15,547 bases of DNA from Candidatus Nealsonbacteria bacterium RIFCSPHIGHO2_02_FULL_43_13 (GTDB taxonomy: Bacteria > Patescibacteriota > Minisyncoccia > Minisyncoccales > MHMH01): NCBI GenBank assembly GCA_001819295.1, contig MHMD01000019.1, forward strand, positions 1 through 15,547, given 5' to 3'. Below the pieces are notes generated by a model. It was not told where the DNA came from. It was given only the letters and a program-made list of their open reading frames with translations, and searched no databases. How positions within the stretch are numbered: the stretch's first letter is position 1; the number at the start of each line of letters is the position of its first letter. Positions 176 through 15,547 of this stretch are shown piece after piece. The position numbers and the translations under genes are program-made.

Positions 176-372
176 AAAAAAAAGAAAAGCCCGTCCTGAG
201 CTACGTCGAAAGGTGCCCCAGCCGCGTCTGGAACCTCATCTCCAGAGGGGAATTTGAGCCCTTTTGTGTTTTTGGGGCGAGGCATCCTAGTCGGCCGCCA
301 AGTCTGACTTGGCAAGCCTCCCGCCCTTGGCGAGGCTCGCTCTCTAGGCGGCGCCTCTTGGCGGGGGTTATA
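176..372. repeat. GC-rich palindrome cluster in intergenic DNA
   Basis: This gene-free stretch between two minus-strand genes is GC-rich, while both flanks are AT-rich. It holds several short palindromes: GCCAAGTC at 297-304 faces GACTTGGC at 306-313, AGGC/GCCT surround GGC near 346-356, and GCCT...AGGC pairs lie near 316-337. A CCTGAGCTACGTCGAAAGG-type motif lies at 195-213. Similar hairpin words occur at 3781-3815 and 5497-5520, which suggests a dispersed intergenic repeat family. No open reading frame or promoter is convincing here, and no function can be assigned from this copy alone. Confidence 0.5.
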
Positions 373-387
373 TTCGTGATTTTAGCA

Positions 388-750
388 CTAATTAAATTTC
401 TTAGAAATTCTCCAAAAATAAACTAAAAATAGAATTTCGACGGCGACCGATACGAGTTGTATGGTATCTGTGCCGTGAGACGTCAGAAAATAATAAATTG
501 GTCCGAAAAGAGCGAAAATAGCTATCGCGGTGTACCCATAAAGCCCCCATTTCTTCATTTTACGAAGGCCGAAAGACGTAGTGATAAGACCAACAGCGAT
601 AATCAATTGGAGCATCCCCAGAAAAGTGCTGATTATCAAATACGGCAATGCCATAATCAAAGATCCGATTCCTCCAATCAGCAAAAGAATCGATATATTC
701 TTAACCGGCGACAAAAACGATGATTTTTCTAAATTTGTTCCTATTTCCAT
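388..750 (-). CDS. Small four-helix integral membrane protein, unknown function
   Basis: This encodes a 120-residue protein starting MEIGTNLEKSSFLSPVKNIS. Four hydrophobic segments can be seen: about 20-36 (ISILLLIGG...), 38-58, 68-85 (after the basic turn LRKMKKWGLYGY) and 98-113. It ends in RISKKFN. The hydrophobic hairpin joined by a basic Gly-Leu-Arg-Lys-Met-Lys-Lys-Trp turn resembles small DUF2127-like or multipass proteins common in CPR genomes, but the family is not certain. An upstream ATG at 849 would add 33 residues overlapping the neighbouring gene. The ATG at 750 is preferred because it leaves a normal gap and the extra residues look like shadow sequence. No Shine-Dalgarno sequence precedes the start. 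It may be cotranscribed with the gene at 794-1453. Confidence 0.7.
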   Translation of the reverse strand: MEIGTNLEKSSFLSPVKNISILLLIGGIGSLIMALPYLIISTFLGMLQLIIAVGLITTSFGLRKMKKWGLYGYTAIAIFALFGPIYYFLTSHGTDTIQLVSVAVEILFLVYFWRISKKFN

Positions 751-793
751 AATTTTAGATTTGTTAAATTTATTAAATCGACCTTTATTTATA

Positions 794-1453
794 TTATTCC
801 AAAAACCTAAAAGTAGAAAGTATTTCTTCAAAAATACCCAATGCTTCATTTGTATCTACGGTATTAAATTCTCCTCCAAAGTTTATCAAATATTTATCCT
901 TATTAATCATAAAATCTCCACATCCAAAAACGACGCCCTCCCCTGATTCTAAATATGCTGAGACTCTTGTGTTTTTAGTACATTTCTCTGAGATATAATC
1001 ATTGCAATATCCTGCGGGGAGAACTTTATATAAAATTTTGAATGGTTTATTGTCTATCATAATGTTTTTTTCAGAGATATTAATTTTATTCACCACATCA
1101 TAAAACCTACCGCTAAAGGTAAAATCATCAGCCATACCACATCCGCCCCCTGTTATAATTGGATTTAAAATAACCTGTAGCCCAGAATTATCTTTTTTAA
1201 TTTCAAACGCTCTATCAATAACTCCCGAAGTATTATCTTCAATTAAATTAAAATCCGATGGATATTTAAGTAAGATTTTAAATATATCTGATGTATATTC
1301 TTTCCAATCGATGGTTTCGTCTTCAATTACCTCCTCTCCGGGCACTATTTTCTCTTCTGACACCCTAAAATACTGCCAAGCGAAAATTCCTCCACCAATT
1401 AAAATAACCAAAATAATTACAATCCAAATTTTAGAAAAAGATTGATTTCGCAT
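794..1453 (-). CDS. Membrane-anchored extracytoplasmic protein, unknown function
   Basis: This encodes 219 residues. A basic N-terminus (MRNQSFSKIW) precedes one long hydrophobic segment at about 10-27 (IVIILVILIGGGIFAW), followed by an acidic linker (EEKIVPGEEVIEDE). The rest is a soluble mixed alpha/beta domain with a W-K-E-Y-T...F-K-I-L-L-K-Y-P-S-D-F opening. Small anchored CPR proteins that start W..Y....F.F.YP usually carry PsbP-like or lipoprotein-like folds, so that is the best fold guess. Several cysteines (GGGCGM, GYCNDY, EKCTKN, FGCGDF) could form disulfides outside the cell. The start at 1453 is backed by an AAGG a few bases upstream on the minus strand. The next gene on this strand starts 43 bases downstream. 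Substrate or partner cannot be inferred. Confidence 0.75.
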   Translation of the reverse strand: MRNQSFSKIWIVIILVILIGGGIFAWQYFRVSEEKIVPGEEVIEDETIDWKEYTSDIFKILLKYPSDFNLIEDNTSGVIDRAFEIKKDNSGLQVILNPIITGGGCGMADDFTFSGRFYDVVNKINISEKNIMIDNKPFKILYKVLPAGYCNDYISEKCTKNTRVSAYLESGEGVVFGCGDFMINKDKYLINFGGEFNTVDTNEALGIFEEILSTFRFLE

Positions 1454-1494
1454 GGTACCTTTATGTTGACTAATCTTTCTTCATTCTGACAGAA

Positions 1495-1640
1495 AATTGC
1501 TTCTTTGGCAACGGCGGCTTTTGCGAAGCCAAAGTTACCAACAGTTTACCAACTGGGGGTCTGGACTCCCGGGCGGGGTTGCTTGCCCTGAAAGAGTTGA
1601 AGGGCGGCATCATCCCCTTGAAAGGTCGAGTCCCAGGTGA
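1495..1640. other. Structured intergenic stretch with nested inverted repeats
   Basis: This gene-free region is unusually rich in pairing. CTTTGGC (1503-1509) faces GCCAAAG (1528-1534). CAGTT (1542-1546) faces AACTG (1551-1555) across a TACC loop, and TTACCAAC is repeated directly around it. Then a nested set appears: GGACTC (1563-1568) with GAGTCC (1628-1633), GGGG (1575-1578) with CCCC (1614-1617), and GCCCT (1585-1589) with AGGGC (1601-1605) around an 11-base loop. It could be a structured RNA, a mobile-element relic or a recombination site. No promoter or ORF makes one of these more likely. Confidence 0.35.
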
Positions 1641-1658
1641 AAAATTCTTTGAGAAAAT

Positions 1659-1679
1659 AAAAAAACGCCGAAGATGGCG
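1659..1679 (-). terminator. Rho-independent terminator of the coiled-coil gene
   Basis: The minus strand reads CGCC-ATCTTC-GGCG followed by seven T residues (plus-strand 1666-1679 stem, 1659-1665 A run). It lies about 30 bases past the stop of the minus-strand gene at 1710-1964. The stem is short but GC-only and the T tract is strong. Confidence 0.65.
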
Positions 1680-1709
1680 ATAATAATAAACGTAAAGATG
1701 TTAAAAGAC

Positions 1710-1964
1710 TTATCTCTTCGATTTTGCTTCAAGCATGCCGACTCGTTTTTCGAGAATAACGAATTCTTCGCGGGAAACCTTCTGTTTTAAGTCGTTCTTG
1801 ATGGTTTCAATATCAAGTTTTATTATTTCAAGCGTTTCAGTATTACCGGACACTTGCTCGGCAATAACCTGTATTTTATCTTCCAACTTTTCGGCCACGA
1901 CGTCAAAGTGCCGATTGGTTTCTTCCTTATATTCATTTAAAATTTGTTTGATATCTTCGGCCAT
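1710..1964 (-). CDS. Short coiled-coil protein, unknown function
   Basis: This encodes 84 residues, strongly charged and free of membrane segments, beginning MAEDIKQILNEYKEET. Hydrophobic residues recur at heptad spacing through VVAEKLEDKIQVIAEQV, IIKLDIETIKNDL and FVILEKRVGMLEAKSKR. The protein is thus predicted to be almost wholly a parallel or antiparallel coiled coil. Proteins of this size and style are frequent CPR hypotheticals; no enzymatic motif is visible. The gene has its own sigma70-type promoter (1977-2004) and terminator (1659-1679), so it is a stand-alone transcript. The leader is only a few bases long and has no Shine-Dalgarno sequence, so translation may be near-leaderless. 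Confidence 0.7.
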   Translation of the reverse strand: MAEDIKQILNEYKEETNRHFDVVAEKLEDKIQVIAEQVSGNTETLEIIKLDIETIKNDLKQKVSREEFVILEKRVGMLEAKSKR

Positions 1965-1976
1965 ATCTGTATCATT

Positions 1977-2004
1977 ATTTTATCAATTCAATAAATCGTG
2001 TCAA
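1977..2004 (-). promoter_or_regulatory. Sigma70-type promoter of the coiled-coil gene
   Basis: The minus strand carries a perfect -35 TTGACA (1999-2004), a 16-base spacer and a -10 TAAAAT (1977-1982), ending 12 bases before the ATG at 1964. This predicts a leader of only about 5 bases. Confidence 0.7.
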
Positions 2005-2024
2005 CTATCCGCTTACGATGTCTG

Positions 2025-2064
2025 GATATCCGATTTCCAGATAGATGTTCGGAAATTGGATATC
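2025..2064. repeat. Imperfect 14-bp inverted repeat
   Basis: GATATCCGATTTCC (2025-2038) pairs with GGAAATTGGATATC (2051-2064) across a 12-base loop, with one G-T wobble. It lies between the coiled-coil gene promoter and the tRNA-Arg terminator. It resembles in size and wording the perfect hairpin at 2255-2298 on the other side of tRNA-Arg, and the two may belong to one repeat family. Confidence 0.6.
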
Positions 2065-2066
2065 AT

Positions 2067-2090
2067 AAAAACGAGATCAGAAGCGTCTCG
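2067..2090 (-). terminator. Terminator downstream of tRNA-Arg
   Basis: On the minus strand CGAGA (2090-2086 side as TCTCG on plus) pairs with TCTCG across a nine-base loop and is followed by five T residues (plus-strand A run 2067-2071). It begins 24 bases after the tRNA 3' end, which is the expected place for a tRNA terminator. The stem is only 5 bp. Confidence 0.5.
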
Positions 2091-2114
2091 GTCACCCGAC
2101 TTAGCATGTGCTTG

Positions 2115-2186
2115 TGCCCTCGCCAAGATTCGAACTTGGACTACGACGTTCGAAGCGTCGCGTGATATCCATTTCACTACGAGGGC
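2115..2186 (-). tRNA. tRNA-Arg (anticodon TCG)
   Basis: This folds as a complete 72-base cloverleaf on the minus strand. The acceptor stem is GCCCTCG/CGAGGGC with discriminator A, the D stem GTGA/TCAC and the anticodon stem CGACG/CGTCG. The loop CTTCGAA gives anticodon TCG. The variable region is TAGT, and the T arm is CCAAG-TTCGAAT-CTTGG. The bases after the discriminator read CAA, so CCA is not encoded and must be added by an enzyme, whose gene is next door. A promoter (2195-2222) and a short terminator (2067-2090) flank it. Anticodon TCG, rather than the usual bacterial ACG that is edited to ICG, reads CGA directly. Confidence 0.95.
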
Positions 2187-2194
2187 GCACTTAG

Positions 2195-2222
2195 ATTATA
2201 TCAAAAATTTGGAAAAAATCAA
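2195..2222 (-). promoter_or_regulatory. Promoter of tRNA-Arg
   Basis: The minus strand has -35 TTGATT (2217-2222), a 16-base spacer and a perfect -10 TATAAT (2195-2200). The -10 ends eight bases before the mature tRNA 5' end, so transcription would start at or next to it. It overlaps the divergent cca promoter. Confidence 0.7.
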
Positions 2223-2237
2223 ATCTTAAGATATGAT
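2209..2237 (+). promoter_or_regulatory. Promoter of cca, divergent from tRNA-Arg
   Basis: TTGGAA (2209-2214), a 17-base spacer and TATGAT (2232-2237) form a sigma70-like promoter pointing at cca. The -10 covers an in-frame upstream ATG at 2233, which rules that codon out as the start if this promoter is used. It supports translation from 2308. It overlaps the tRNA-Arg promoter on the other strand. Confidence 0.6.
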
Positions 2238-2254
2238 AAATCAACGGATATTTG

Positions 2255-2298
2255 GGGTTTCCGAAATCCACCTTAATTTTGGAGGATTTCGGAAACCC
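2255..2298 (+). promoter_or_regulatory. Perfect 15-bp hairpin in the cca 5' leader
   Basis: GGGTTTCCGAAATCC (2255-2269) and GGATTTCGGAAACCC (2284-2298) are exact reverse complements around a 14-base loop. The hairpin would fill most of the untranslated leader and ends nine bases before the cca ATG. The only GGAGG in the leader (2281-2285) sits partly in the loop and partly in the stem. There is no T run after it, so it is not a standard terminator. Either a regulatory RNA structure or an inserted palindromic repeat would fit. Confidence 0.65.
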
Positions 2299-2307
2299 AG
2301 AAATCGT

Positions 2308-3753
2308 ATGGAGATTCCCAAAGAAATAAAAACTATCATCAGTAAACTGAAAAAGCGTGGCTTTGAAGCTTATGTGGTGGGCGGTTGCGTTCGCGATATT
2401 TTGAGAGGTATCGTCCCCCACGACTGGGACGTAGCTACCAACGCCAAACCGGAAGAAATTCAGAAGATTTTTCCCAAGAATTTTTACGAAAATAAGTTTC
2501 TCACTGTGGCCGTGCAGACTGGGAGTAAAACTCCTGCGACTAAAGAAGTGGAGATTACCACTTATCGTTCGGAGTCAAAATATACGGATAAGCGCCATCC
2601 GGATGAAGTTAAATACGCCAAAACCATTCAGGAAGACTTAGCCCGCCGCGACTTCACCATTAATGCCATTGCTTTGGACGACGACAAGACGATTGATCCG
2701 TTTTCAGGCCAGAAAGACTTAAAAGATAAGATTATCAGGGCGGTGGGCGTTGCTCAAGACCGATTCGCCGAAGACGCCCTAAGAATGATGAGGGCGGTAA
2801 GGCTTGCAACTGCGCTTGATTTTACTATCGAGGAGAAAACGGCTATTGCTATAAAAAAGAACGCTTCGTTGCTGAAGGTCATCTCTAAAGAAAGAATTAG
2901 GGACGAATTGGTCAAAATTATCATAGCTGCCAAGGCGGCCCAGGGCATTGAGATGCTAAGGGAATTGGGTCTTTTGAAATATGTCATACCCGAGCTCGAA
3001 GAAGGTTATCAGGTGACGCAGAATAAGCACCACGTTTACGAATGCTATGAGCACGCTCTTTTTTCTTTGAAATACGCCGCCCAGCAAGGTTTTAATATTT
3101 ATGTCCGAATGGCTGCCTTGCTGCACGACATCGGCAAGCCTAAATCCAAAAAAGGCGAGGGTGAGAACGCCACTTTTTACAACCATGAAATGATCGGCGC
3201 TAAAATGACGGATCAGCTTTTAACCCGTTTAAGATTTTCCCAGAAAGACGTTGAGAAAATCACCAAGCTTGTCAGATACCATCTATTCTATTATAATGTT
3301 GACGAGGTGACGGAAAGCTCGGTTAGACGCTTGGTCAGACAGGTGGGGCCGGAAGACATGGCAGAGCTTTTGCAGGTAAGAATGTGCGACCGGATTGGTT
3401 CGGGAGTACCCAAGGCCGAGCCCTACAAATTGCGACATTTGAAATACGTCATTGATAAAGTGTCGCAAGACCCGATTTCAGTTAGAATGCTAAAGGTGAC
3501 AGGCAACGACGTCATGAAAGAATTGGACATTTTACCCGGACCTAAAATTGGACATTATTTGGACATTTTATTGGGAAATGTCCTAAATGACCCGAAAAAG
3601 AACAAAAAAGAGCTTTTAATCAAGGAAATTGCGACATTGGGCAAATTAACTGAAAAGGAGTTGAGTGTTTTGGCCCAGAAAGCCAAAAAAGAGCGGGAAA
3701 AAGTGGTCGTCAAACAAGACGAGATGACTAAGCAAAAATACTGGGTAAGTTAA
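2308..3753 (+). CDS. cca: CCA tRNA nucleotidyltransferase with HD domain
   Basis: This enzyme adds or repairs the 3' CCA of tRNAs using CTP and ATP. From the ATG at 2308 it has 481 residues. The nucleotidyltransferase head shows GGCVRD (25-30), the metal-binding HDWDVAT with D39 and D41 (38-44), and RRDFTINA (113-120). RFAEDALRMMRAVRLA (152-167) opens the helical neck. A second module carries an HD phosphohydrolase signature: H249, LLHDIGKP with H273-D274, then YNHE around 291-294. An in-frame ATG at 2233 lies inside the promoter -10 and its 25 codons cross the leader hairpin, so 2308 is the better start. The C-terminal tail after about 450 is lysine-rich. All three tRNAs in the window lack encoded CCA, which fits the assignment. 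tRNA-Pro begins 61 bases after the stop, with no promoter seen between them. Confidence 0.93.
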   Translation: MEIPKEIKTIISKLKKRGFEAYVVGGCVRDILRGIVPHDWDVATNAKPEEIQKIFPKNFYENKFLTVAVQTGSKTPATKEVEITTYRSESKYTDKRHPDEVKYAKTIQEDLARRDFTINAIALDDDKTIDPFSGQKDLKDKIIRAVGVAQDRFAEDALRMMRAVRLATALDFTIEEKTAIAIKKNASLLKVISKERIRDELVKIIIAAKAAQGIEMLRELGLLKYVIPELEEGYQVTQNKHHVYECYEHALFSLKYAAQQGFNIYVRMAALLHDIGKPKSKKGEGENATFYNHEMIGAKMTDQLLTRLRFSQKDVEKITKLVRYHLFYYNVDEVTESSVRRLVRQVGPEDMAELLQVRMCDRIGSGVPKAEPYKLRHLKYVIDKVSQDPISVRMLKVTGNDVMKELDILPGPKIGHYLDILLGNVLNDPKKNKKELLIKEIATLGKLTEKELSVLAQKAKKEREKVVVKQDEMTKQKYWVS

Positions 3754-3780
3754 AAGATTTCACATGAAACACGGGCCTTT

Positions 3781-3815
3781 GCCTCGCCAAAGCGAGGCTC
3801 TGGCCTCGCGAAGGC
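3781..3815 (+). repeat. GC-rich hairpins before tRNA-Pro
   Basis: GCCTCGC (3781-3787) and GCGAGGC (3792-3798) form a perfect 7-bp hairpin with a CAAA loop. A second, weaker GCCT-CGCGA-AGGC hairpin (3803-3815) reaches the first base of tRNA-Pro. The repeated GGCCTCGC wording resembles the palindrome cluster at 176-372. The hairpins may guide 5' processing of the tRNA from a cca transcript or be dispersed repeats. Confidence 0.5.
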
Positions 3816-3885
3816 GGGGTGTAGTGTAACGGTAGCACGAGTCCTTCGGGAGGATTTAGTTGGAGTTCGAATCTCCACACCCCGA
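3815..3885 (+). tRNA. tRNA-Pro (anticodon CGG)
   Basis: This folds as a 71-base cloverleaf. The acceptor stem is CGGGGTG/CACCCCG with discriminator A, the D stem GTGT/GCAC and the anticodon stem AGTCC/GGATT. The loop TTCGGGA gives anticodon CGG followed by G37. The T arm is TGGAG-TTCGAAT-CTCCA. The C1-G72 pair and G37 are typical of bacterial tRNA-Pro. The following bases are CAA, so CCA is not encoded. No promoter is visible between cca and this gene, so cotranscription with cca is likely. A protein gene starts only seven bases after the 3' end. Confidence 0.95.
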
Positions 3886-3892
3886 CAAACAT

Positions 3893-4696
3893 ATGCAACA
3901 AGAAAAAGGACAGATCGAGATCTTGCTTTTAATTTTAGGCATCATTGGCGTTCTTATTTTCACCGGTTTTTTCAAAAGTAAAGGAAATTCTGAGGTTAAG
4001 CCTGCGGTGCCTTCTTATCAAAAAGAGAACGTTGCCCCTTCCCATGGATTAAAACCATCGGAGCCTAGCCCTGTTCCCGTCTCAGACGGTATTGCACCTT
4101 ATCGTTTTAATCCTGCTCCAATCGAGGGCTTGCCCTCAAATACGCGACAGACGGTTATCAGTTTAGGAACCAACGAAAAAGCTATTTGTAAGTATAGTTC
4201 GATTTCAGGGGTAAGTTATGATGCGATGCAATATACCCTGTCTAACAGTGCTGACGGCACCCTTCATTATGCTTCGATTACCGCTTTGAATGAAGGCACG
4301 GCTTATAATTATTACGTTAAATGCCTCGATCAATCCGGCAATAAAAATACCAATGATTTCGTGATTGCTTTTTGGGTTGACTTCCCCGCCGATTTTACTC
4401 CCCCTGTTTTGAGCAACGCCTATCCGTCGGGCGATTCTTTGCCCGTAGGCAGTTTTACCATAATAGGCGTCAGCACTAACGAACCAGCTTCTTGCCGCTA
4501 TTCCTGGGCTCAAGGCACGGCTTATGATTCGATGAGCGATAGCCTTTCGCCTGCTGATGGAACAAGGCGATATCATACTGCGACGATTACCGGTTTGGTC
4601 GCTGGCAAGGCCTATGATTATTTTGTCCGTTGCAAGGATTTGAGCGGCAATGTTAATATGGGCGACGTTAAAATTAACTTTAATCTTACGCCATGA
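3893..4696 (+). CDS. Membrane-anchored protein with two Cys-paired FN3-like repeats
   Basis: This encodes 267 residues from the ATG at 3893; an upstream TTG in the same frame lies inside tRNA-Pro and was rejected. One membrane segment (about 8-26, IEILLLILGIIGVLIFTGF) is followed by a Pro/Ser-rich spacer (about 35-80). Two beta-type repeats follow at about 86-164 and 188-265. Each runs S.GTNE/VSTNEPA - C(K/R)YS - Y(D)AM/SM - ADGT..Y..SIT.L..G.AY.Y.V(K/R)C.D.SGN. The cysteines pair up as C99/C144 and C201/C247, probably disulfides. The fold looks like fibronectin III, as in many CPR surface proteins, so a surface or adhesion role is plausible but unproven. No Shine-Dalgarno sequence exists because tRNA-Pro occupies that space. 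The stop overlaps the next start as ATGA. Confidence 0.82.
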   Translation: MQQEKGQIEILLLILGIIGVLIFTGFFKSKGNSEVKPAVPSYQKENVAPSHGLKPSEPSPVPVSDGIAPYRFNPAPIEGLPSNTRQTVISLGTNEKAICKYSSISGVSYDAMQYTLSNSADGTLHYASITALNEGTAYNYYVKCLDQSGNKNTNDFVIAFWVDFPADFTPPVLSNAYPSGDSLPVGSFTIIGVSTNEPASCRYSWAQGTAYDSMSDSLSPADGTRRYHTATITGLVAGKAYDYFVRCKDLSGNVNMGDVKINFNLTP

Positions 4697-5169
4697 AACA
4701 AAATCAACAATTTCAACATCTTAAAGCTATTGAGTATGGCATTAATAAACACTTGTTTATTATTTGCGCCATTGTGACGATTATCGTGATGGCCATGACG
4801 TTGATCGATTTTTTCACTCGAGGCAACCTTTTTACGGTTCAAATAGCGCCTTTTTATCTTGGCGTTTTGTTGATTTATTCCCTGCATAAAGAGATTGTCC
4901 GGTGGCTGGGGCAAAGGAGCGTAGAGCGGCAGGGAGAACTGTTTGTTTATATTTGGATCGGCTTGACCACGGCTCTTTATGTTATTAACTTTGCGACCAA
5001 AAACTACTTTAGCGTAACGGCCGAAGGCCTTTCGATCAATACCCTTCAAAGCACCATGGTGCTCGCCTTGGAAGTTTTGGCTATTTTTATCTTTACCAGA
5101 TTTCTCAAAATTCTGAAGATTTCTCTGGCTAAGAAGCATTTTTTAAAAAAGATTAAAGATAATAATTAA
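4693..5169 (+). CDS. Four-helix integral membrane protein, unknown function
   Basis: This encodes 158 residues with four hydrophobic segments: about 19-40 (HLFIICAIVTIIVMAMTLIDFF), 51-67 (IAPFYLGVLLIYSLHKE), 86-103 (LFVYIWIGLTTALYVINF) and 122-140 (MVLALEVLAIFIFTRFL). Both ends are basic and probably cytosolic, ending KKHFLKKIKDNN. I recognise no enzymatic or transport motif. The start overlaps the preceding stop by four bases (ATGA), so it is translationally coupled to the anchored repeat protein. The two may act together at the membrane, but that rests only on the overlap. Confidence 0.72.
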   Translation: MKQNQQFQHLKAIEYGINKHLFIICAIVTIIVMAMTLIDFFTRGNLFTVQIAPFYLGVLLIYSLHKEIVRWLGQRSVERQGELFVYIWIGLTTALYVINFATKNYFSVTAEGLSINTLQSTMVLALEVLAIFIFTRFLKILKISLAKKHFLKKIKDNN

Positions 5170-5174
5170 GAGCC

Positions 5175-5477
5175 GTGAGAATTACTTTTCAATCCCAGGA
5201 AAATATCCAGAATATTATGCGGCACTGCGGTTATTTTTTTATTAAGCAGGAGCAAAACGAATTGGCTTTTGTCCGGCCGCTTTCCTCCGCAGGTTCCGGC
5301 TACCCCAGATTTCACATCTATGTTAATATGGAAAAGTTTCCACATGAAACCCAGATAAATCTACACCTCGATCAGAAAAAGCCGGTTTATCGCGGGACCA
5401 CCGCCCATTCGGGCGAATACGAGGGAGAGATTGTGGAAAAAGAAACGAAGAGGATAAAACAAATACTGGGCCTGTAG
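5175..5477 (+). CDS. Conserved CPR-type hypothetical protein
   Basis: This encodes 100 residues if translation starts at GTG 5175; an internal ATG (residue 14, I-M-R-H-C-G-Y) is the alternative. Recognisable features are RHCGYFF, FVRPLS, YPRFHIYV, HLDQKKP and AHSGEYEGEIVEKE. From memory this arrangement matches a short hypothetical protein that recurs in Parcubacteria-like genomes, usually near housekeeping genes. It has no membrane segment and no known catalytic motif. The conserved His, Asp and Glu residues could suggest nucleic-acid or metal binding, but nothing proves it. It follows the membrane protein by five bases and probably shares its transcript. Its stop codon lies inside the broken tRNA-Ala-like sequence that begins at 5468. 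Confidence 0.75.
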   Translation: MRITFQSQENIQNIMRHCGYFFIKQEQNELAFVRPLSSAGSGYPRFHIYVNMEKFPHETQINLHLDQKKPVYRGTTAHSGEYEGEIVEKETKRIKQILGL

Positions 5478-5535
5478 TAAAATGGCATTACGCGGCCCTC
5501 CTTCGCTAAAGCTACGAAGGGTAAAACATTCGCAC
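5468..5535 (+). pseudogene. tRNA-Ala-like relic interrupted by a hairpin
   Basis: Bases 5468-5496 match the 5' half of the intact tRNA-Ala at 5564 at 24 of 29 positions, from the acceptor strand through the D arm into the anticodon stem. About 30 inserted bases follow, holding the palindrome CCTTCG...CGAAGG. Then CATTCGCA at 5528-5535 repeats the tRNA-Ala anticodon loop. No T arm or 3' acceptor strand follows. Two of the five differences exchange a T-G pair for A-T in the D stem, so pairing is kept. This looks like a decayed tRNA copy rather than chance similarity. Confidence 0.6.
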
Positions 5536-5639: not shown

Positions 5640-6599
5640 ATGAATTTACAGAAAGTTAGTGAATTACCTTCTAAAGTAGCCATGTATAAATACCATCACC
5701 CAAAGCCAATAATAATAAAACTTACCGACGAACTTGGTTTTCAGTTGAGACGGAAAGCGGCAGAGTATATTATAGCTAACCAAAACCGAACAGGTGCAGA
5801 AAGGGGGAGCTCCGAAGAACAAGGTTTTGGCGCGCTCGCGGAGATGGTCATCCGTAATGGACTTGGAATGCCTAAAATTAACCCTAAAGATCATCCGCTT
5901 GGTTACGATATACTGTTGCCGTCCGGTGTAAAATTGGATGTGAAATGCCGTGGTGGCGCGTTACCATTCAAAGAAGAATATGAAAGCAATGATGGTATTG
6001 TGCGAGAAGCGAAGCATAATTTCTTTGCGCGTCAGATCCATGATCAAGATTTGGACGCCGATATCTATCTGATGACGCACCTTGAAACACCGAGCAATCG
6101 AGCTCTTCCTGGTACTACGCGGCAGAGAAAGTGGATACTTTATATCTGCGGCTGGGTATCAAAAGAACGAGTTGCCCGCGAGGGCGTTTACTTGCCTCGG
6201 GGTTCTCTTACTGAACAAGGACGAACTTGGTTTACATATCGTGGGCAGGAAATAGAGTTCTATAATCGTAATCTTAACGGGATAGAGGAGGTGAAAGACT
6301 TATTGGATATTGAGGCACTGGACGTTAAGAAGGATAAAAATTTGAAAGGCAATTTAAATCTAACCTCTGTCGATGCGGTGAGGATTGCCTATGATCTTAT
6401 CGGTCGTGGCGTGCTCGCCGAGAAGCATCTAACTTTTATTAAAAAAGAGACCGGTCTTAAGAAAATCGTAAAGCCGATATTACACTCAAATCAGTATTTC
6501 CATCTTTTGCGGTGGCTTAAAGAAAAGGGTGTTTTAACCAACAGCGAGATGGAAAAAGCGCGCAAAATTCTAAAAGAGGAGCTGTATAGCGGAATTTAA
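5640..6599 (+). CDS. Type II restriction endonuclease, PD-(D/E)xK fold (putative)
   Basis: This encodes 319 residues. The core fits a PD-(D/E)xK nuclease: a helix with E68 (GFGALAEMVIRN), then HPLGYDILLPSGVKLDVKCR with D90 and D100-V101-K102 as likely metal-binding and catalytic residues. It is followed by strands such as WILYICGWV (165-173) and by FYNRNL. Residues from about 240 form a helical C-terminal domain, perhaps for DNA contacts. The convergent methyltransferase gene overlaps its last four bases, the classic partner arrangement, so the pair is probably a type II R-M system. The start is uncertain: ATG 5640 lies five bases after tRNA-Ala and has no Shine-Dalgarno sequence, and ATG 5682 (MYKYHHPKP) is an alternative. 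The target sequence cannot be inferred. Confidence 0.78.
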   Translation: MNLQKVSELPSKVAMYKYHHPKPIIIKLTDELGFQLRRKAAEYIIANQNRTGAERGSSEEQGFGALAEMVIRNGLGMPKINPKDHPLGYDILLPSGVKLDVKCRGGALPFKEEYESNDGIVREAKHNFFARQIHDQDLDADIYLMTHLETPSNRALPGTTRQRKWILYICGWVSKERVAREGVYLPRGSLTEQGRTWFTYRGQEIEFYNRNLNGIEEVKDLLDIEALDVKKDKNLKGNLNLTSVDAVRIAYDLIGRGVLAEKHLTFIKKETGLKKIVKPILHSNQYFHLLRWLKEKGVLTNSEMEKARKILKEELYSGI

Positions 6600-7693
6600 A
6601 ATAATTTACTACTAATAGCCCGATATTGCGATTCCGCTTCCTTAATGCGCTGTTTACAAACCTCAATATAGTCCACCTTATTTTTTTTGAACAGATAAAC
6701 TTCTTGGTTTTTCTCAATTCCGATAAATTTTCTCCCCTCTAAAACGGCAGAAACCAAAAAGCTCCCACTACCACAGGTGTTGTCCAGAATTATATCTCCG
6801 GGTTTGGTGAATGTTTTTATTAAATACCTGCCCAGTTCTACGGGTTTCTGCGTAGGATGGTAGACGGGACCCTCGCTTTCAGCAGTTTTAAAATAAACCA
6901 CGTCTGTTGGATAGCGTTCCCCATTACTCTTTACTTCCACGGTTTTAAAATCTCCATAGCTTCCAGTTAATTGATCTTTACGGAAACCTTTATTATACGG
7001 CTCTCCGAGAGTCATTTGAGGCATATACTCTGGTTGTTGTTTGTAGAAGATAAGTACATCTTCGTGTTTTCTTAATGGTTGTTTTTTAGCATTTAAGAAG
7101 TTAGTTGGTTTAGATTTTACCCAAACAATCTTGTATTTAAATAATTTTGGATTAGAGGTTATTAAATTAGCAGAGAAAAGTCCTTGTCCCGTAAGAGCAA
7201 CGACTCCCTTGTCTTTAATAATTCTCTCGTAGTGTCGCCACAATCGATCAAGAGGAATCACGCTGTCCCACTGATTCTGGGTAGTGCCATACGGTAGATC
7301 GCACAAAATCATATCTATGGATTTAGGAAGGATGTCTTCCATTGTCTCTAAACAATCTCCCTCCATGACTTGATTTATAAAGTGGGAGATTGCCTTTTCA
7401 GTGCTCTTTACCGTTTTGGCTTTTAGTTTTTCTTCTTCTACGCCGAGATTTTTGCGTAAATACCGAAGACAATAAGTGTTTACCGCCAAACACTCTTCCC
7501 GTGCCCTCCGTTCAAGCTCAATATATGAATCAGTACCGAATAGGTCTCGTAATTCATTACTGCCAAGGTTAGCTATACTCTTATATAAATCCTTGTTTCT
7601 ATCGCCAAAAGCCAAAATCAAAGCCTTGGTTTTTGGGTTGACCTCCTTGTAGTCGGGGAAGTAGATTGCCTTAAAGACCTGGTTGCTGGGCAT
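6596..7693 (-). CDS. Site-specific DNA methyltransferase, beta-class N6-adenine/N4-cytosine
   Basis: This encodes 365 residues. The catalytic motif IV is DLPYGT (132-137), followed by TQNQWD. KHEDVLIFYK lies at 209-218, motif X HPTQKPVEL at 279-287, and the S-adenosylmethionine loop DNTCGSGSF at 304-312. Catalytic motif before SAM motif is the beta order of the N6_N4_Mtase family. The DLPY tetrapeptide means an exocyclic amino group is the target, adenine or cytosine. About 105 residues precede the catalytic core, longer than in a minimal family member, with no domain I recognise. It protects host DNA from the convergent nuclease. The promoter at 7700-7727 leaves almost no leader, so translation is probably leaderless. 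Confidence 0.9.
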   Translation of the reverse strand: MPSNQVFKAIYFPDYKEVNPKTKALILAFGDRNKDLYKSIANLGSNELRDLFGTDSYIELERRAREECLAVNTYCLRYLRKNLGVEEEKLKAKTVKSTEKAISHFINQVMEGDCLETMEDILPKSIDMILCDLPYGTTQNQWDSVIPLDRLWRHYERIIKDKGVVALTGQGLFSANLITSNPKLFKYKIVWVKSKPTNFLNAKKQPLRKHEDVLIFYKQQPEYMPQMTLGEPYNKGFRKDQLTGSYGDFKTVEVKSNGERYPTDVVYFKTAESEGPVYHPTQKPVELGRYLIKTFTKPGDIILDNTCGSGSFLVSAVLEGRKFIGIEKNQEVYLFKKNKVDYIEVCKQRIKEAESQYRAISSKLF

Positions 7694-13162: not shown

Positions 13163-13465
13163 ATGAATAATTTACCCCTGTTTCTCAAAAAATATTTTTG
13201 GGACGTAGATTTTTTAAAACTAAATAGGAATTCCCATTCCCAATTCATCATTGAGAGGGTTTTAGAATACGGAGACGAAAGGGCGGTAAAATGGCTATTT
13301 AAATATTTTAAAAAATCCGAACTCAAAGAGGCGCTTGAAAAAAAGAGAAATATATCGCCCTTAAGCGCCAATTATTGGGGGTTGATATTGGACGTTCCTA
13401 AGAATAAAATTTTATGTTTACGGAATCAATCTCAAAACAAACTGCAGAAAACCTGGCTTTATTAG
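13163..13465 (+). CDS. Putative antitoxin of an AbiE-like pair (DUF6922-like)
   Basis: This encodes 100 residues opening MNNLPLFLKKYFWDVDFLKL, with IIERVLEYGDERAVKWLFKYF in the middle and LSANYWGLILDV near the end. From memory this layout (P-L-F-L-K-K-Y-F-W-D-V-D-F...E-Y-G-D) matches small proteins, sometimes called DUF6922, encoded before AbiEii-type nucleotidyltransferases. It is much shorter than the classical winged-helix AbiEi antitoxin, so DNA binding is not assured. Its reading frame overlaps the next gene by 52 bases, a strong sign of coupled expression. The start lies six bases after a TAAAAT box, so the message is probably leaderless. Confidence 0.7.
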   Translation: MNNLPLFLKKYFWDVDFLKLNRNSHSQFIIERVLEYGDERAVKWLFKYFKKSELKEALEKKRNISPLSANYWGLILDVPKNKILCLRNQSQNKLQKTWLY

Positions 13466-14031
13466 GAAAATCAAAGATGCTCGGCGACGCTTATTTGGCC
13501 GGGGGGACTGCGCTCGCTTTGCAAATAGGCCACCGCATTTCTTACGACCTTGATTTTTTTACCTCCCAAAAATTTAAAGCCCAAATTTTCCTTAAGGAAA
13601 TGAGCGGGTTTAAATTATACCGGCACGAACGGGTGGCGTGGGGAACAATCTTGGGCAGGCTGGGGAAGGTTAAATTCAGTTTATTTTATTATCCTTACCC
13701 TCTTTTAAAAAAAACAATTAGTTTTCAGAATATTAACATCGCCAGCATAACCGATATTGCGGCGATGAAAATAGCGGCCATCAGCGAAAGAGGGACAAAA
13801 AGGGATTTTATAGATTTATATTTTATTCTCCAAAAAATTACCCTCGCTCGAGCGTTTAATTTTTATGATAGAAAGTATCAAAAACTCTCTTCTAATTTAG
13901 TTCATATTAAAAAAAGCTTGGTTTATTTTGATGACGCTGAAAACGACCCGATGCCCAAAATGATAATCCCCATTTCTTGGGGAAAAGTGAAATTTTTTTT
14001 TGAAGGAGAAATCAAGAGGTTCTCCTCCTAG
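13414..14031 (+). CDS. AbiEii/AbiGii-type nucleotidyltransferase toxin
   Basis: This encodes 205 residues. The nucleotidyltransferase core shows LAGGTALALQIGHRISYDLDFF, with the GGT loop at 30-32 and the metal pair D45-x-D47. IASITDIAAMKIAAISERGTKRDFIDLYFIL follows (about 110-140), the family's typical second block. Members of this family act as toxins in type IV-like AbiE systems, where they modify nucleic acids, in some relatives tRNA ends. This is known for the family and only inferred here. The start at 13414 overlaps the antitoxin gene; a later ATG at 13477 would cut into the conserved region preceding GGT and is less likely. A terminator follows at 14057-14078. Confidence 0.85.
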   Translation: MFTESISKQTAENLALLGKSKMLGDAYLAGGTALALQIGHRISYDLDFFTSQKFKAQIFLKEMSGFKLYRHERVAWGTILGRLGKVKFSLFYYPYPLLKKTISFQNINIASITDIAAMKIAAISERGTKRDFIDLYFILQKITLARAFNFYDRKYQKLSSNLVHIKKSLVYFDDAENDPMPKMIIPISWGKVKFFFEGEIKRFSS

Positions 14032-14150: not shown

Positions 14151-14795
14151 ATGAGGAAACTATGGAGTGCAATAATTCTGGTGGCGGCGTTGTTTGTGTT
14201 GCCGATCTTGTCCGGATGTGGCGGCTCCGGAACGCAAATCGCTGAAAAGGATCAGCGGATTACGAAGCTGGAGGGCCAGGCCAGGGAAAGCAGTTTGCAA
14301 ATTGCCGAGAAGGATCAGCAAATTGCAAAACTGGAGGCGCAGATTGGGTCGGGGAATTCGCAGGTTGCCGAAAAGGATCAGCAAATTGCGGGGCTGAAAA
14401 CCCAGATTGTTGAAAAAGACGGGAAGATCGCCGGTTTACAAGCAGAGCTGGCAAAAGCGTCCAGAAATCCGACAGCCGCTGAAGTTACGCTTTTTCTGGC
14501 TAACGACTTGACGGATAGGGCGTTCGCATCCTTTCAATATAGCCACTTGGAAGCCGTCCATCAGGTCGTCAAGAATGCCGGGAGCAAGGGGCTTAAGGCA
14601 TTCACGGTGACGGCAATGGTGGCAAGCAATACCGCTTTGTACTTTGCCGGATTTAAGACCAGCGATAAGGGGGTAGTTTATATTCTGACTTCCATAGATA
14701 GGGAGGTCAAATTAGTGGAGGGGGAGGACTACTACAAGGCGAATGGCTTTTCTGGAGGACCCGCCACCATTCTGAAAATTTTCGCATTCGAATAA
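14151..14795 (+). CDS. Putative lipoprotein with tandem coiled-coil repeats, unknown function
   Basis: This encodes 214 residues. The basic start MRKLW and a hydrophobic stretch lead to a lipobox L20-S21-G22-C23, so Cys23 should be lipidated and the protein tethered outside the membrane. Residues 29-105 are a coiled coil built of a repeated AEKDQ(Q/R)I(A/T)(K/G)L(E/K) unit. At DNA level copies begin at 14241, 14304 and 14367, 63 bases (three heptads) apart, with a diverged fourth at 14409. The C-terminal globular part (about 110-214) matches no family I know. Codons are richer in G and C than in the flanking genes and the gene has a full Shine-Dalgarno sequence, promoter and terminator, which may mean transfer. 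It resembles small spacer-type lipoproteins only in its anchor and coil. Confidence 0.75.
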   Translation: MRKLWSAIILVAALFVLPILSGCGGSGTQIAEKDQRITKLEGQARESSLQIAEKDQQIAKLEAQIGSGNSQVAEKDQQIAGLKTQIVEKDGKIAGLQAELAKASRNPTAAEVTLFLANDLTDRAFASFQYSHLEAVHQVVKNAGSKGLKAFTVTAMVASNTALYFAGFKTSDKGVVYILTSIDREVKLVEGEDYYKANGFSGGPATILKIFAFE

Positions 14796-14807: not shown

Positions 14808-14838
14808 AAAGGGGGCTTTTATAAATAAAGCCCCCTTT
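14808..14838. terminator. Strong terminator after the lipoprotein gene
   Basis: A 12-bp perfect stem, AAAGGGGGCTTT with AAAGCCCCCTTT, closes a 7-base loop (14820-14826). It is followed by a T-rich stretch on the plus strand. It separates the lipoprotein gene from the YcaO gene. Confidence 0.85.
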
Positions 14839-14877: not shown

Positions 14878-15547
14878 ATGAGCGTAGAATACAAGTCCGT
14901 CAACCGAAGTTGGCAGCATTTTGGAGATATTGCCAAAGAAGAGGAATCAAAAATCAAAAAATATCCGTCTATTTTTTTATTATACGATTCAATTTCCCAA
15001 AAAATTTATGCCGAGGCGCTGAAACTTATCGAAAAACTGATTGGAACGCGACTTTATAGTTCCGTTGAAGAAGAGCCATGGTCGGGTTTTGCCCCGCGGA
15101 CAAAAATAATAGCCTTAAATCTCATTAAGAAAAAGATTATCAAAAGAATCACCAAAATACCCAGGCGTTATCATGACGAGCCAAAAATTATTCAGTACCA
15201 GACCGAAACGCCGACCAGTTATCCCGATATTTCTGCTTACTCCGACGGCCGGGGGTCTTTTTCAAAATTCGGCGGCGGAGCCGATTTAAACGAGGAAAGA
15301 GCTTTTATGAAAGCAGTCGGCGAGGGAGTGGAAAGACTTTGCCTTTGCACCTACAAGGAAAAAGATTGCTTACTCTCTACCTACAAAGAAATTTCAAAAA
15401 AAGCCGTTAACCCGCTTTCTTTCGCCGGTATTTCAGAGTTACAACGCCAATCGATCAATGGTTTAAAAATAGACGAGAGATCGGTTTTCCGGTGGGTTCA
15501 GGGGCGTTCGCTTATTGATGGGAAAAAATTTTTTATCCCAGCCCAGT
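14878..15547 (+). CDS. YcaO-domain protein, N-terminal part (cut by window end)
   Basis: YcaO enzymes use ATP to activate peptide backbone amides, giving azolines, thioamides or amidines in peptides, or to modify proteins such as ribosomal S12. The frame is open for 223 codons to the window edge. Residues 1-110 form a leading region (KYPSIFLLYDSIS..., EPWSGFAPRTK) that I cannot assign. The YcaO core starts near 120: AYSDGRGSFSKFGGGADLNE, then ERAFMKAVGEGVERLCL (140-156), matching the conserved helix with E149 and E152. FRWVQGRSLIDGKKFFIPAQ (204-223) matches the usual Trp-x-x-Gly-x-Ser-Leu...Val-Pro-Ala strand. The ATP-binding C-terminal half is outside the window. No Shine-Dalgarno sequence is seen. 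A thiazole/oxazole peptide cluster beyond the edge is possible but unproven. Confidence 0.85.
   Translation, partial: MSVEYKSVNRSWQHFGDIAKEEESKIKKYPSIFLLYDSISQKIYAEALKLIEKLIGTRLYSSVEEEPWSGFAPRTKIIALNLIKKKIIKRITKIPRRYHDEPKIIQYQTETPTSYPDISAYSDGRGSFSKFGGGADLNEERAFMKAVGEGVERLCLCTYKEKDCLLSTYKEISKKAVNPLSFAGISELQRQSINGLKIDERSVFRWVQGRSLIDGKKFFIPAQ

Follow-up and report, generated by a model that had tools for sequence, protein, structure and literature searches.

A YcaO-SagB cluster at the edge of the window

The window analysed here, 15,547 nucleotides from Candidatus Nealsonbacteria bacterium RIFCSPHIGHO2_02_FULL_43_13 (contig MHMD01000019.1), ends inside a gene for a YcaO-family protein, which we describe together with a SagB-type dehydrogenase and a cysteine-rich open reading frame (ORF) as the probable core of a linear azol(in)e-containing peptide (LAP) pathway. 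The window ends where an 8-N assembly gap begins within the gene; the source contig (C19, 58,293 bases, in an assembly of 524,307 bases that is 92.4% complete) runs on beyond it. The YcaO frame stays open across the gap to give a protein of 516 amino acids (aa), of which three residues over the gap are unread. The part of the gene inside the window, an ORF from 14878 to 15546 without a stop up to the edge, already gives a PF02624 match of 39.1 bits (cut-off 25.7).

The original prediction, made from the window alone, had placed the partners of this YcaO, as a biosynthetic enzyme in a reduced genome resembling those of the candidate phyla radiation (CPR), to the right of the gene. This is where we found the SagB-type gene (Table 1), whose protein has McbC and SagB-type proteins among its PDB matches, and, beginning 440 bases past its end, the cysteine-rich ORF of 148 aa. 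The latter stands 2 bases behind a gene for a 125-aa protein and 7 bases ahead of one for a 639-aa protein, and all three follow a putative promoter, a consensus match that is the sole such site in 7.3 kb. The left border of the cluster is marked by a terminator-like hairpin closing the preceding gene (14151-14795). A strong terminator had been predicted here; the hairpin is present, but the pattern alone is weak, since a scan of the region yielded 12 such sites against 10.0 expected.

Table 1. Features of the YcaO-SagB locus (positions continue those of the window; L002 is the analysed locus stretch)
Feature	Position	Position in L002	Strand	Remarks
Intrinsic-terminator-like hairpin	14808..14838	309-339	+	12-pair stem, 6 G-C pairs, tail AAATTTGATT
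YcaO (SagD-family) gene	window part 14878..15547; whole 14878-16428	379-1929	+	N run 15548-15555
N-terminal helical hairpin of YcaO	14899..15048		+	residues 8-57; outside YcaO fold
SagB-type dehydrogenase	16440-17189	1941-2690		249 aa; 11 bases after YcaO gene; TIGR03605 153.2 bits, cut-off 78.4
Promoter-like site	17201-17230	2702-2731		TTGACA-18-TATAAT; 12/12 consensus positions
Protein with hydrophobic N-terminus	17249-17626	2750-3127		125 aa
Candidate precursor	17629-18075	3130-3576		148 aa; membrane helix, linker, VFAQ, core with 20 Cys
Surface-type protein	18083-20002	3584-5503		639 aa; PF25788 32.5 bits, cut-off 27.4

The YcaO protein

The complete protein matches TIGR03604 (SagD family) with 245.5 bits over residues 137-515 (cut-off 219.25) and PF02624 with 190.3 bits from residue 136, and carries the motifs described earlier, GEGVER (residues 148-153) and FRWVQGRSL (near 204-212). 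The residues of the two Glu-x-x-Glu-Arg motifs (E149, E152, R153, E262, E265 and R266), which we take to be the ATP/Mg motifs, are kept in 34/34 aligned sequences, so that a loss of ATP-binding glutamates, named beforehand as a refuting result, did not occur. The C-terminus reads PLPHP at 510-514, as it does in P0002, a 99%-identical database protein without gap and with 8 member sequences; within the family the last two prolines of this PxPxP end are found in 34/34 and the first in 6/34 sequences. By cut-off, motifs and C-terminus, the protein is a SagD-family member predicted to form azolines.

The leading region, put at about 110 residues before, is longer by sequence, with the Pfam match beginning at 136, and shorter by fold: the predicted LynD/McbD-like fold starts at about residue 70 (14 YcaO-type structure matches begin at 66-72, one at 83). 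Ahead of it the AlphaFold2 model (mean pLDDT 90.9 over the whole model) has a helical hairpin with helices at 11-28 and 32-55.

Could the enzyme instead make thioamides or amidines, or modify a housekeeping protein, as YcaOs do in methanogens or E. coli? It also matches methan_mark_1 (TIGR03266), and CPR YcaOs are read as thioamidation enzymes in passages of PMC12153355. The score of 83.1 bits is, however, far under the cut-off of 365 and under that of SagD, the S12-type model reaches 13.8 against a cut-off of 700, and the PxPxP end also speaks for azoline formation. An adjacent SagB is not known to have a role in thioamidation. We regard this alternative as very unlikely.

A proposed membrane-leader precursor type in long-YcaO loci of the CPR

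Across the CPR loci, the small ORF recognised at part of those with a long YcaO (~465-535 aa) has a membrane helix, a linker, an AxADVP-like site and a core rich in glycine, serine and cysteine, the core varying more than the leader. Loci with a short YcaO (~410-440 aa) have, where a precursor was recognised, an ORF with a soluble leader, mostly directly upstream (L014-L017, L022, L171-L173 and others); in several of them no small precursor ORF was recognised. Among 25 aligned membrane leaders, the first alanine of AxAD is present in 25/25 and the aspartate in 24/25, the exception being the ORF of our locus, which has Q.

We then required a helix, a site in which Q may replace D and a core of at least two Cys, and counted matches to this rule within 1.5 kb of YcaO. 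It was matched in 14/31 long-YcaO loci, in 0/26 short-YcaO loci and in 0/55 loci outside the CPR, with two further matches elsewhere in ~1.13 Mb. From the class list (23 stretches for 31 places) and the phylum list (8 for 15), both of which include the own place, we took the stronger places and mostly those with frames of ~500 aa. Since the rule was built on this first set, it was left unchanged together with the leader profile, and new genomes were taken: 23 stretches, 5 of them duplicates, leaving 18 loci (3/12 and 20/42 listed places, chosen in the same way; in the latter list G1109, G1097 and G1349 were passed over despite outscoring some that were taken). With the rule alone, a match lies near YcaO in 6/18 and further off in 1/18; with profile matches at E <=0.01 added, 10/18 have a member (L216, L218, L220, L225, L226, L229, L231, L233, L234 and L236), those of L229 and L234 lying beyond 1.5 kb and that of L218 being a 263-aa protein. 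The memberless loci include L215, which is ended by its contig, and L217 and L230 with weak matches (E 0.018 and 0.072).

When databases were searched with the leader profile, 14 of 2,209 candidate proteins reached E <=0.1, and a Pfam domain is absent from all 14. By sequence, five of these are ORFs of the analysed loci and nine are new; the five that carry organism names are 'hypothetical protein' entries that all belong to the CPR (Moranbacteria, Parcubacteria (twice), Paceibacterota and Sungbacteria). A common leader unites eight of the proteins (mean identity 0.78); their cores are 32-47 long, with an identity of 0.48 that is inflated by glycine. No NCBIfam model scored above cut-off in any of five membrane-leader ORFs scanned. 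Charges favour an N-in, core-out orientation in 17/18 ORFs. A signal peptidase I gene is present in the genome; the helix-to-site distance of 2-28 residues mostly exceeds the usual spacing of this enzyme.

The 148-aa ORF of our locus has the same layout, a leader-like part with an N-terminal membrane helix followed by the Cys-rich core. Its cysteine share of 13.5% is the top value among the 191 ORFs sampled (next 13.3%). A homologue search found nothing beyond a strain variant (P0092), which is identical over the first 119 residues and has 18 fewer in a GDCGG-type repeat. By architecture the ORF fits the membrane-leader type, by profile it does so weakly.

Two other ways of finding precursors were given up: a Cys-count filter missed many membrane-leader ORFs and picked up numerous chance ORFs in other frames, and a looser membrane-leader rule also caught a pilin-like ORF (L017:771-1190).

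The same kind of leader occurs on longer proteins of 263-539 aa (L129:4093-5505, L019:11041-12540, L126:9214-10623, L218:5051-5842 and, weakly with E 0.018, L217:7203-8822). Those of L217 and L218 have a Gly/Cys-rich stretch between leader and remainder, and a Pfam scan of the L129, L217 and L218 proteins gave no match. Two YcaO neighbours (L230:4418-5407 and L092:5640-6611) carry long Ser/Tyr/Gln repeats, which in L230 follow a stretch ending AHADVP; they are perhaps Ser-rich substrates. In L131 (G457:C4), two YcaO-SagB pairs face each other, one of them with a membrane-leader ORF.

Search for scaffold partners

The original prediction had listed an E1-like (ThiF) or TfuA protein among the possible partners, and neither was found. 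For the E1-like C protein, TIGR03882 has no match in the own 524-kb assembly (Ocin-ThiF not being among the models run on the whole genome), and a ThiF search of the assembly returned a piece, C22:494-601, which we rejected as it covers 36 of 238 positions and scores 17.7 bits, below the cut-off of 28.1. Family scans and fold matches revealed no C protein fused to YcaO. TfuA is absent among the nine proteins scanned around YcaO, no genome-wide search for it having been made. As for a recognition element (RRE, the PqqD-like winged helix-turn-helix domain), PF05402 has no match in the assembly and the YcaO N-terminus is modelled as a helical hairpin, though the fold list cannot exclude an RRE.

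In known systems the C protein is the leader-binding part of the synthetase, according to passages of PMC4603692 and PMC10634744; in micrococcin synthesis, as described in the latter, no thiazole is formed without the scaffold. Clusters without a C protein are still counted among the thiazole/oxazole-modified microcins when a precursor is present, as a passage of PMC4603692 states.

Distribution and phylogeny

The distribution of the YcaO family is patchy. In a TIGR03604 scan, 5/196 relatives match, the own genome alone being over the cut-off. With the A1 profile and the own genome counted, matches occur in 8/247 genomes of the order, 29/383 of the class and 13/379 of the phylum, and in 37/397 genomes of another order of the same class. 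The best 80 of 459 matches in named genomes come from CPR, DPANN archaea, cyanobacteria, Nitrospinota and others. Of the 49 CPR/DPANN loci counted (12 others being left out), 40 have SagB <=300 bp from YcaO.

Such patchiness would also suit a YcaO-SagB pair that is a remnant without product in this strain. Against this, both frames are intact apart from the assembly gap, the motifs are kept and the gapless P0002 is nearly identical, and we consider a remnant most improbable.

In the analysis as a whole, duplicate rows were dropped (L123=L013, L128=L019, L169=L015, L214=L023, L219=L070, L221=L027, L222=L057, L228=L083). A quick tree was computed from 63 rows, labelled as membrane (21), soluble (16) or unlabelled (26). 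L129, L019 and L126 count as membrane on account of the leader found on a neighbour of 469-499 aa. Among labelled rows the two labels need 2 changes; if unlabelled rows are taken as not membrane, the membrane label needs 9. The N-terminal YcaO extension has a median of 72 residues in membrane versus 7.5 in soluble rows (p 8.6e-5, uncorrected for kinship); the two soluble rows whose extension is long, L009 and L179, form a separate branch. The tree joins the window's YcaO to L124, L013 and L021 with a support of 92 (not starred) and sets it among YcaOs that mostly have an adjacent SagB; a placement with non-biosynthetic YcaOs, which the original prediction had named as a refuting outcome, did not occur. 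A membrane-leader ORF lies at a distance of 29 bases from YcaO in L013 and of 28 bases in L124, where its core is poor and contains one Cys; in L021 no such ORF was seen.

Proposed pathway and its alternatives

We think it probable that the locus encodes a LAP pathway acting on a membrane-leader precursor, with the YcaO hairpin perhaps recognising the leader, and the 148-aa ORF is most likely the substrate. To judge from the protein families, YcaO would use ATP to cyclise cysteines (perhaps also Ser/Thr) of the core into azolines, which the SagB enzyme would oxidise to azoles. The N-terminal helix would stay N-in in the membrane, in which case the modified core would end up outside, to be either displayed there or freed near the VFAQ/AxAD site. 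At the weakest step, the leader may be recognised by the extra hairpin of YcaO and not by an E1-like or RRE partner. Observed are the order of the genes, their families, the predicted fold and the association of the precursor type with long YcaOs; the chemistry, localisation and activity proposed here are inferences.

Several observations weigh against this proposal. No member was found at our thresholds in 17/31 long-YcaO loci and in 8/18 new ones, 5/18 cores hold 0-2 Cys, and the member in L140, a membrane row of the tree, adjoins a short YcaO frame. Left out of the leader profile, the 148-aa ORF scores E 0.74 (rank 28 of 8,367 ORFs), and with VFAQ in place of AxAD it is accepted by the rule only because Q is allowed for D. 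It lies 1.2 kb from YcaO behind its own promoter-like site and may thus belong to another unit. Finally, with an assembly that is ~92% complete, a C protein could be missing from the data. Other members left out of the profile fared no better (L023 E 19, L125 E 29, L133 E 13, L057 not found), which indicates that the profile is weak and that the assignment of the 148-aa ORF rests on architecture and place.

These points bear on another reading, an ordinary LAP pathway with a different short peptide, so far unrecognised or encoded elsewhere, as its actual precursor. The Cys-rich ORF would then be a surface protein of no relation to the pathway, metal-binding or rich in disulfides, and would share an operon of its own with the 639-aa protein. 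The promoter-like site, the two flanking membrane or surface genes and the weak profile score would agree with this, as would a second small ORF of almost the same Cys content (75 aa with 10 Cys, L145:2355-2582; 59 kb of genome sampled). On the other hand, the 148-aa ORF has the highest cysteine share sampled, two of the three nearest tree rows carry a membrane-leader ORF close to YcaO, and from 1.5 kb before to 3.5 kb after YcaO no other ORF of 28-330 aa has at least 6 Cys per 40 residues, a search that does not exclude Cys-poorer peptides. We judge this reading to be unlikely, though it is the least unlikely of the alternatives.

Under the preferred reading, a LAP pathway with a membrane-leader substrate, there is a hint that a tiny, probably host-dependent bacterium displays a chemically modified peptide on its cell surface. 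More tentatively, and with considerable doubt, CPR of the same class may possess a distinct E1/RRE-free LAP system, in which the YcaO hairpin would read a membrane-inserted leader and an azole-rich core, joined at some loci to another domain, would sit on the outer face of the epibiont for contact with host or competitor. A YcaO working on a membrane-inserted leader without an E1-like or RRE partner would, if true, alter the view of leader recognition in azole-peptide synthesis. The short gene set (YcaO, SagB, precursor), expressible in E. coli, would make testable one route by which host-dependent CPR cells may deal with hosts and rivals.

Comparison with known systems

By all tested features except the C protein, the locus would be classed as a LAP-type cluster. 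Such biosynthesis had been predicted to be notable in a reduced genome; the locus is real, but less notable than first thought, as LAP clusters of CPR bacteria (that of Microgenomates_ANG_785, and 110 clusters in 93 genomes) have been in print since 2020 (Sharrar 2020, PMC7298704), and passages of PMC12153355 report clusters for ribosomally synthesised and post-translationally modified peptides (RiPPs) in CPR and DPANN. The clusters of PMC7298704 resemble ours, as far as its text passages describe them, in host, in YcaO standing beside a nitroreductase-type dehydrogenase (89/110) and in a short adjoining precursor; in the one drawn there, unlike here, a peptidase and an 84-aa precursor adjoin YcaO. 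The text passages of that paper, as distinct from figure and supplements, make no mention of a membrane leader, an AxAD site or a link to YcaO length, and the open-licence literature searched yielded no account of LAP precursors with a membrane leader or of such a type tied to long YcaOs. The kind of cluster is known from CPR, and our locus varies it in its candidate precursor and in the scaffold that was not found.

The streptolysin S and microcin B17 synthetases (SagBCD, McbBCD) likewise combine a B dehydrogenase with a D-type YcaO, of McbD fold, but possess the E1-like, RRE-bearing C protein that was found neither at our locus nor in the assembly. This lack is shared with YcaO clusters without recognisable C protein that passages of PMC4603692 describe, to which our locus adds the SagB dehydrogenase and a Cys/Gly/Ser-rich candidate substrate with membrane leader. 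Precursors of the heterocycloanthracin/sonorensin type (TIGR03601) have a Cys-rich core too, and the soluble-leader ORF of L016 and one cyanobacterial ORF (L029) match this model weakly, below cut-off; the membrane helix in the leader, however, belongs to the CPR type described here. Bufferins, Cys-rich RiPPs with Sec signal peptides, are alike in joining an N-terminus of export type to a modified peptide rich in Cys, but they are modified by MNIO enzymes and not by YcaO/SagB.

Further observations at the loci

In soluble-leader clusters, an M16-type peptidase, likely the leader peptidase, follows SagB (L016:6430-7701 by Pfam; L017:5618-6874, L172:7687-8976 and L173:2885-4159 by eye). In the DPANN archaea L059, L062 and L085, one more neighbour accompanies YcaO and SagB and is related between these loci; in L085 it is a predicted Zn protease (DUF2268). 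Most, but not all, cyanobacterial loci have ORFs of 106-125 aa upstream of YcaO-SagB with alike leaders and CGGC-type repeats (e.g. L029:6110-6469). A reading of neighbour cluster 9 as a C39-like peptidase was dropped, since Pfam gives only TPR repeats above cut-off (member L050); the 543-aa neighbour in L070 combines, by Pfam, a phosphoribosyltransferase and a beta-propeller.

Within the window, an AbiEii-type nucleotidyltransferase gene (13414-14031; PF08843, 54.2 bits) lies behind a short ORF (13163-13465), the two likely forming a type IV toxin-antitoxin pair. AbiEii-like genes were seen by eye close to YcaO also in L173 and L175. A 319-aa ORF (5640-6599) and a convergent DNA methyltransferase-like ORF on the minus strand (6596-7693, motif LPYG by eye) are possibly a restriction-modification pair.
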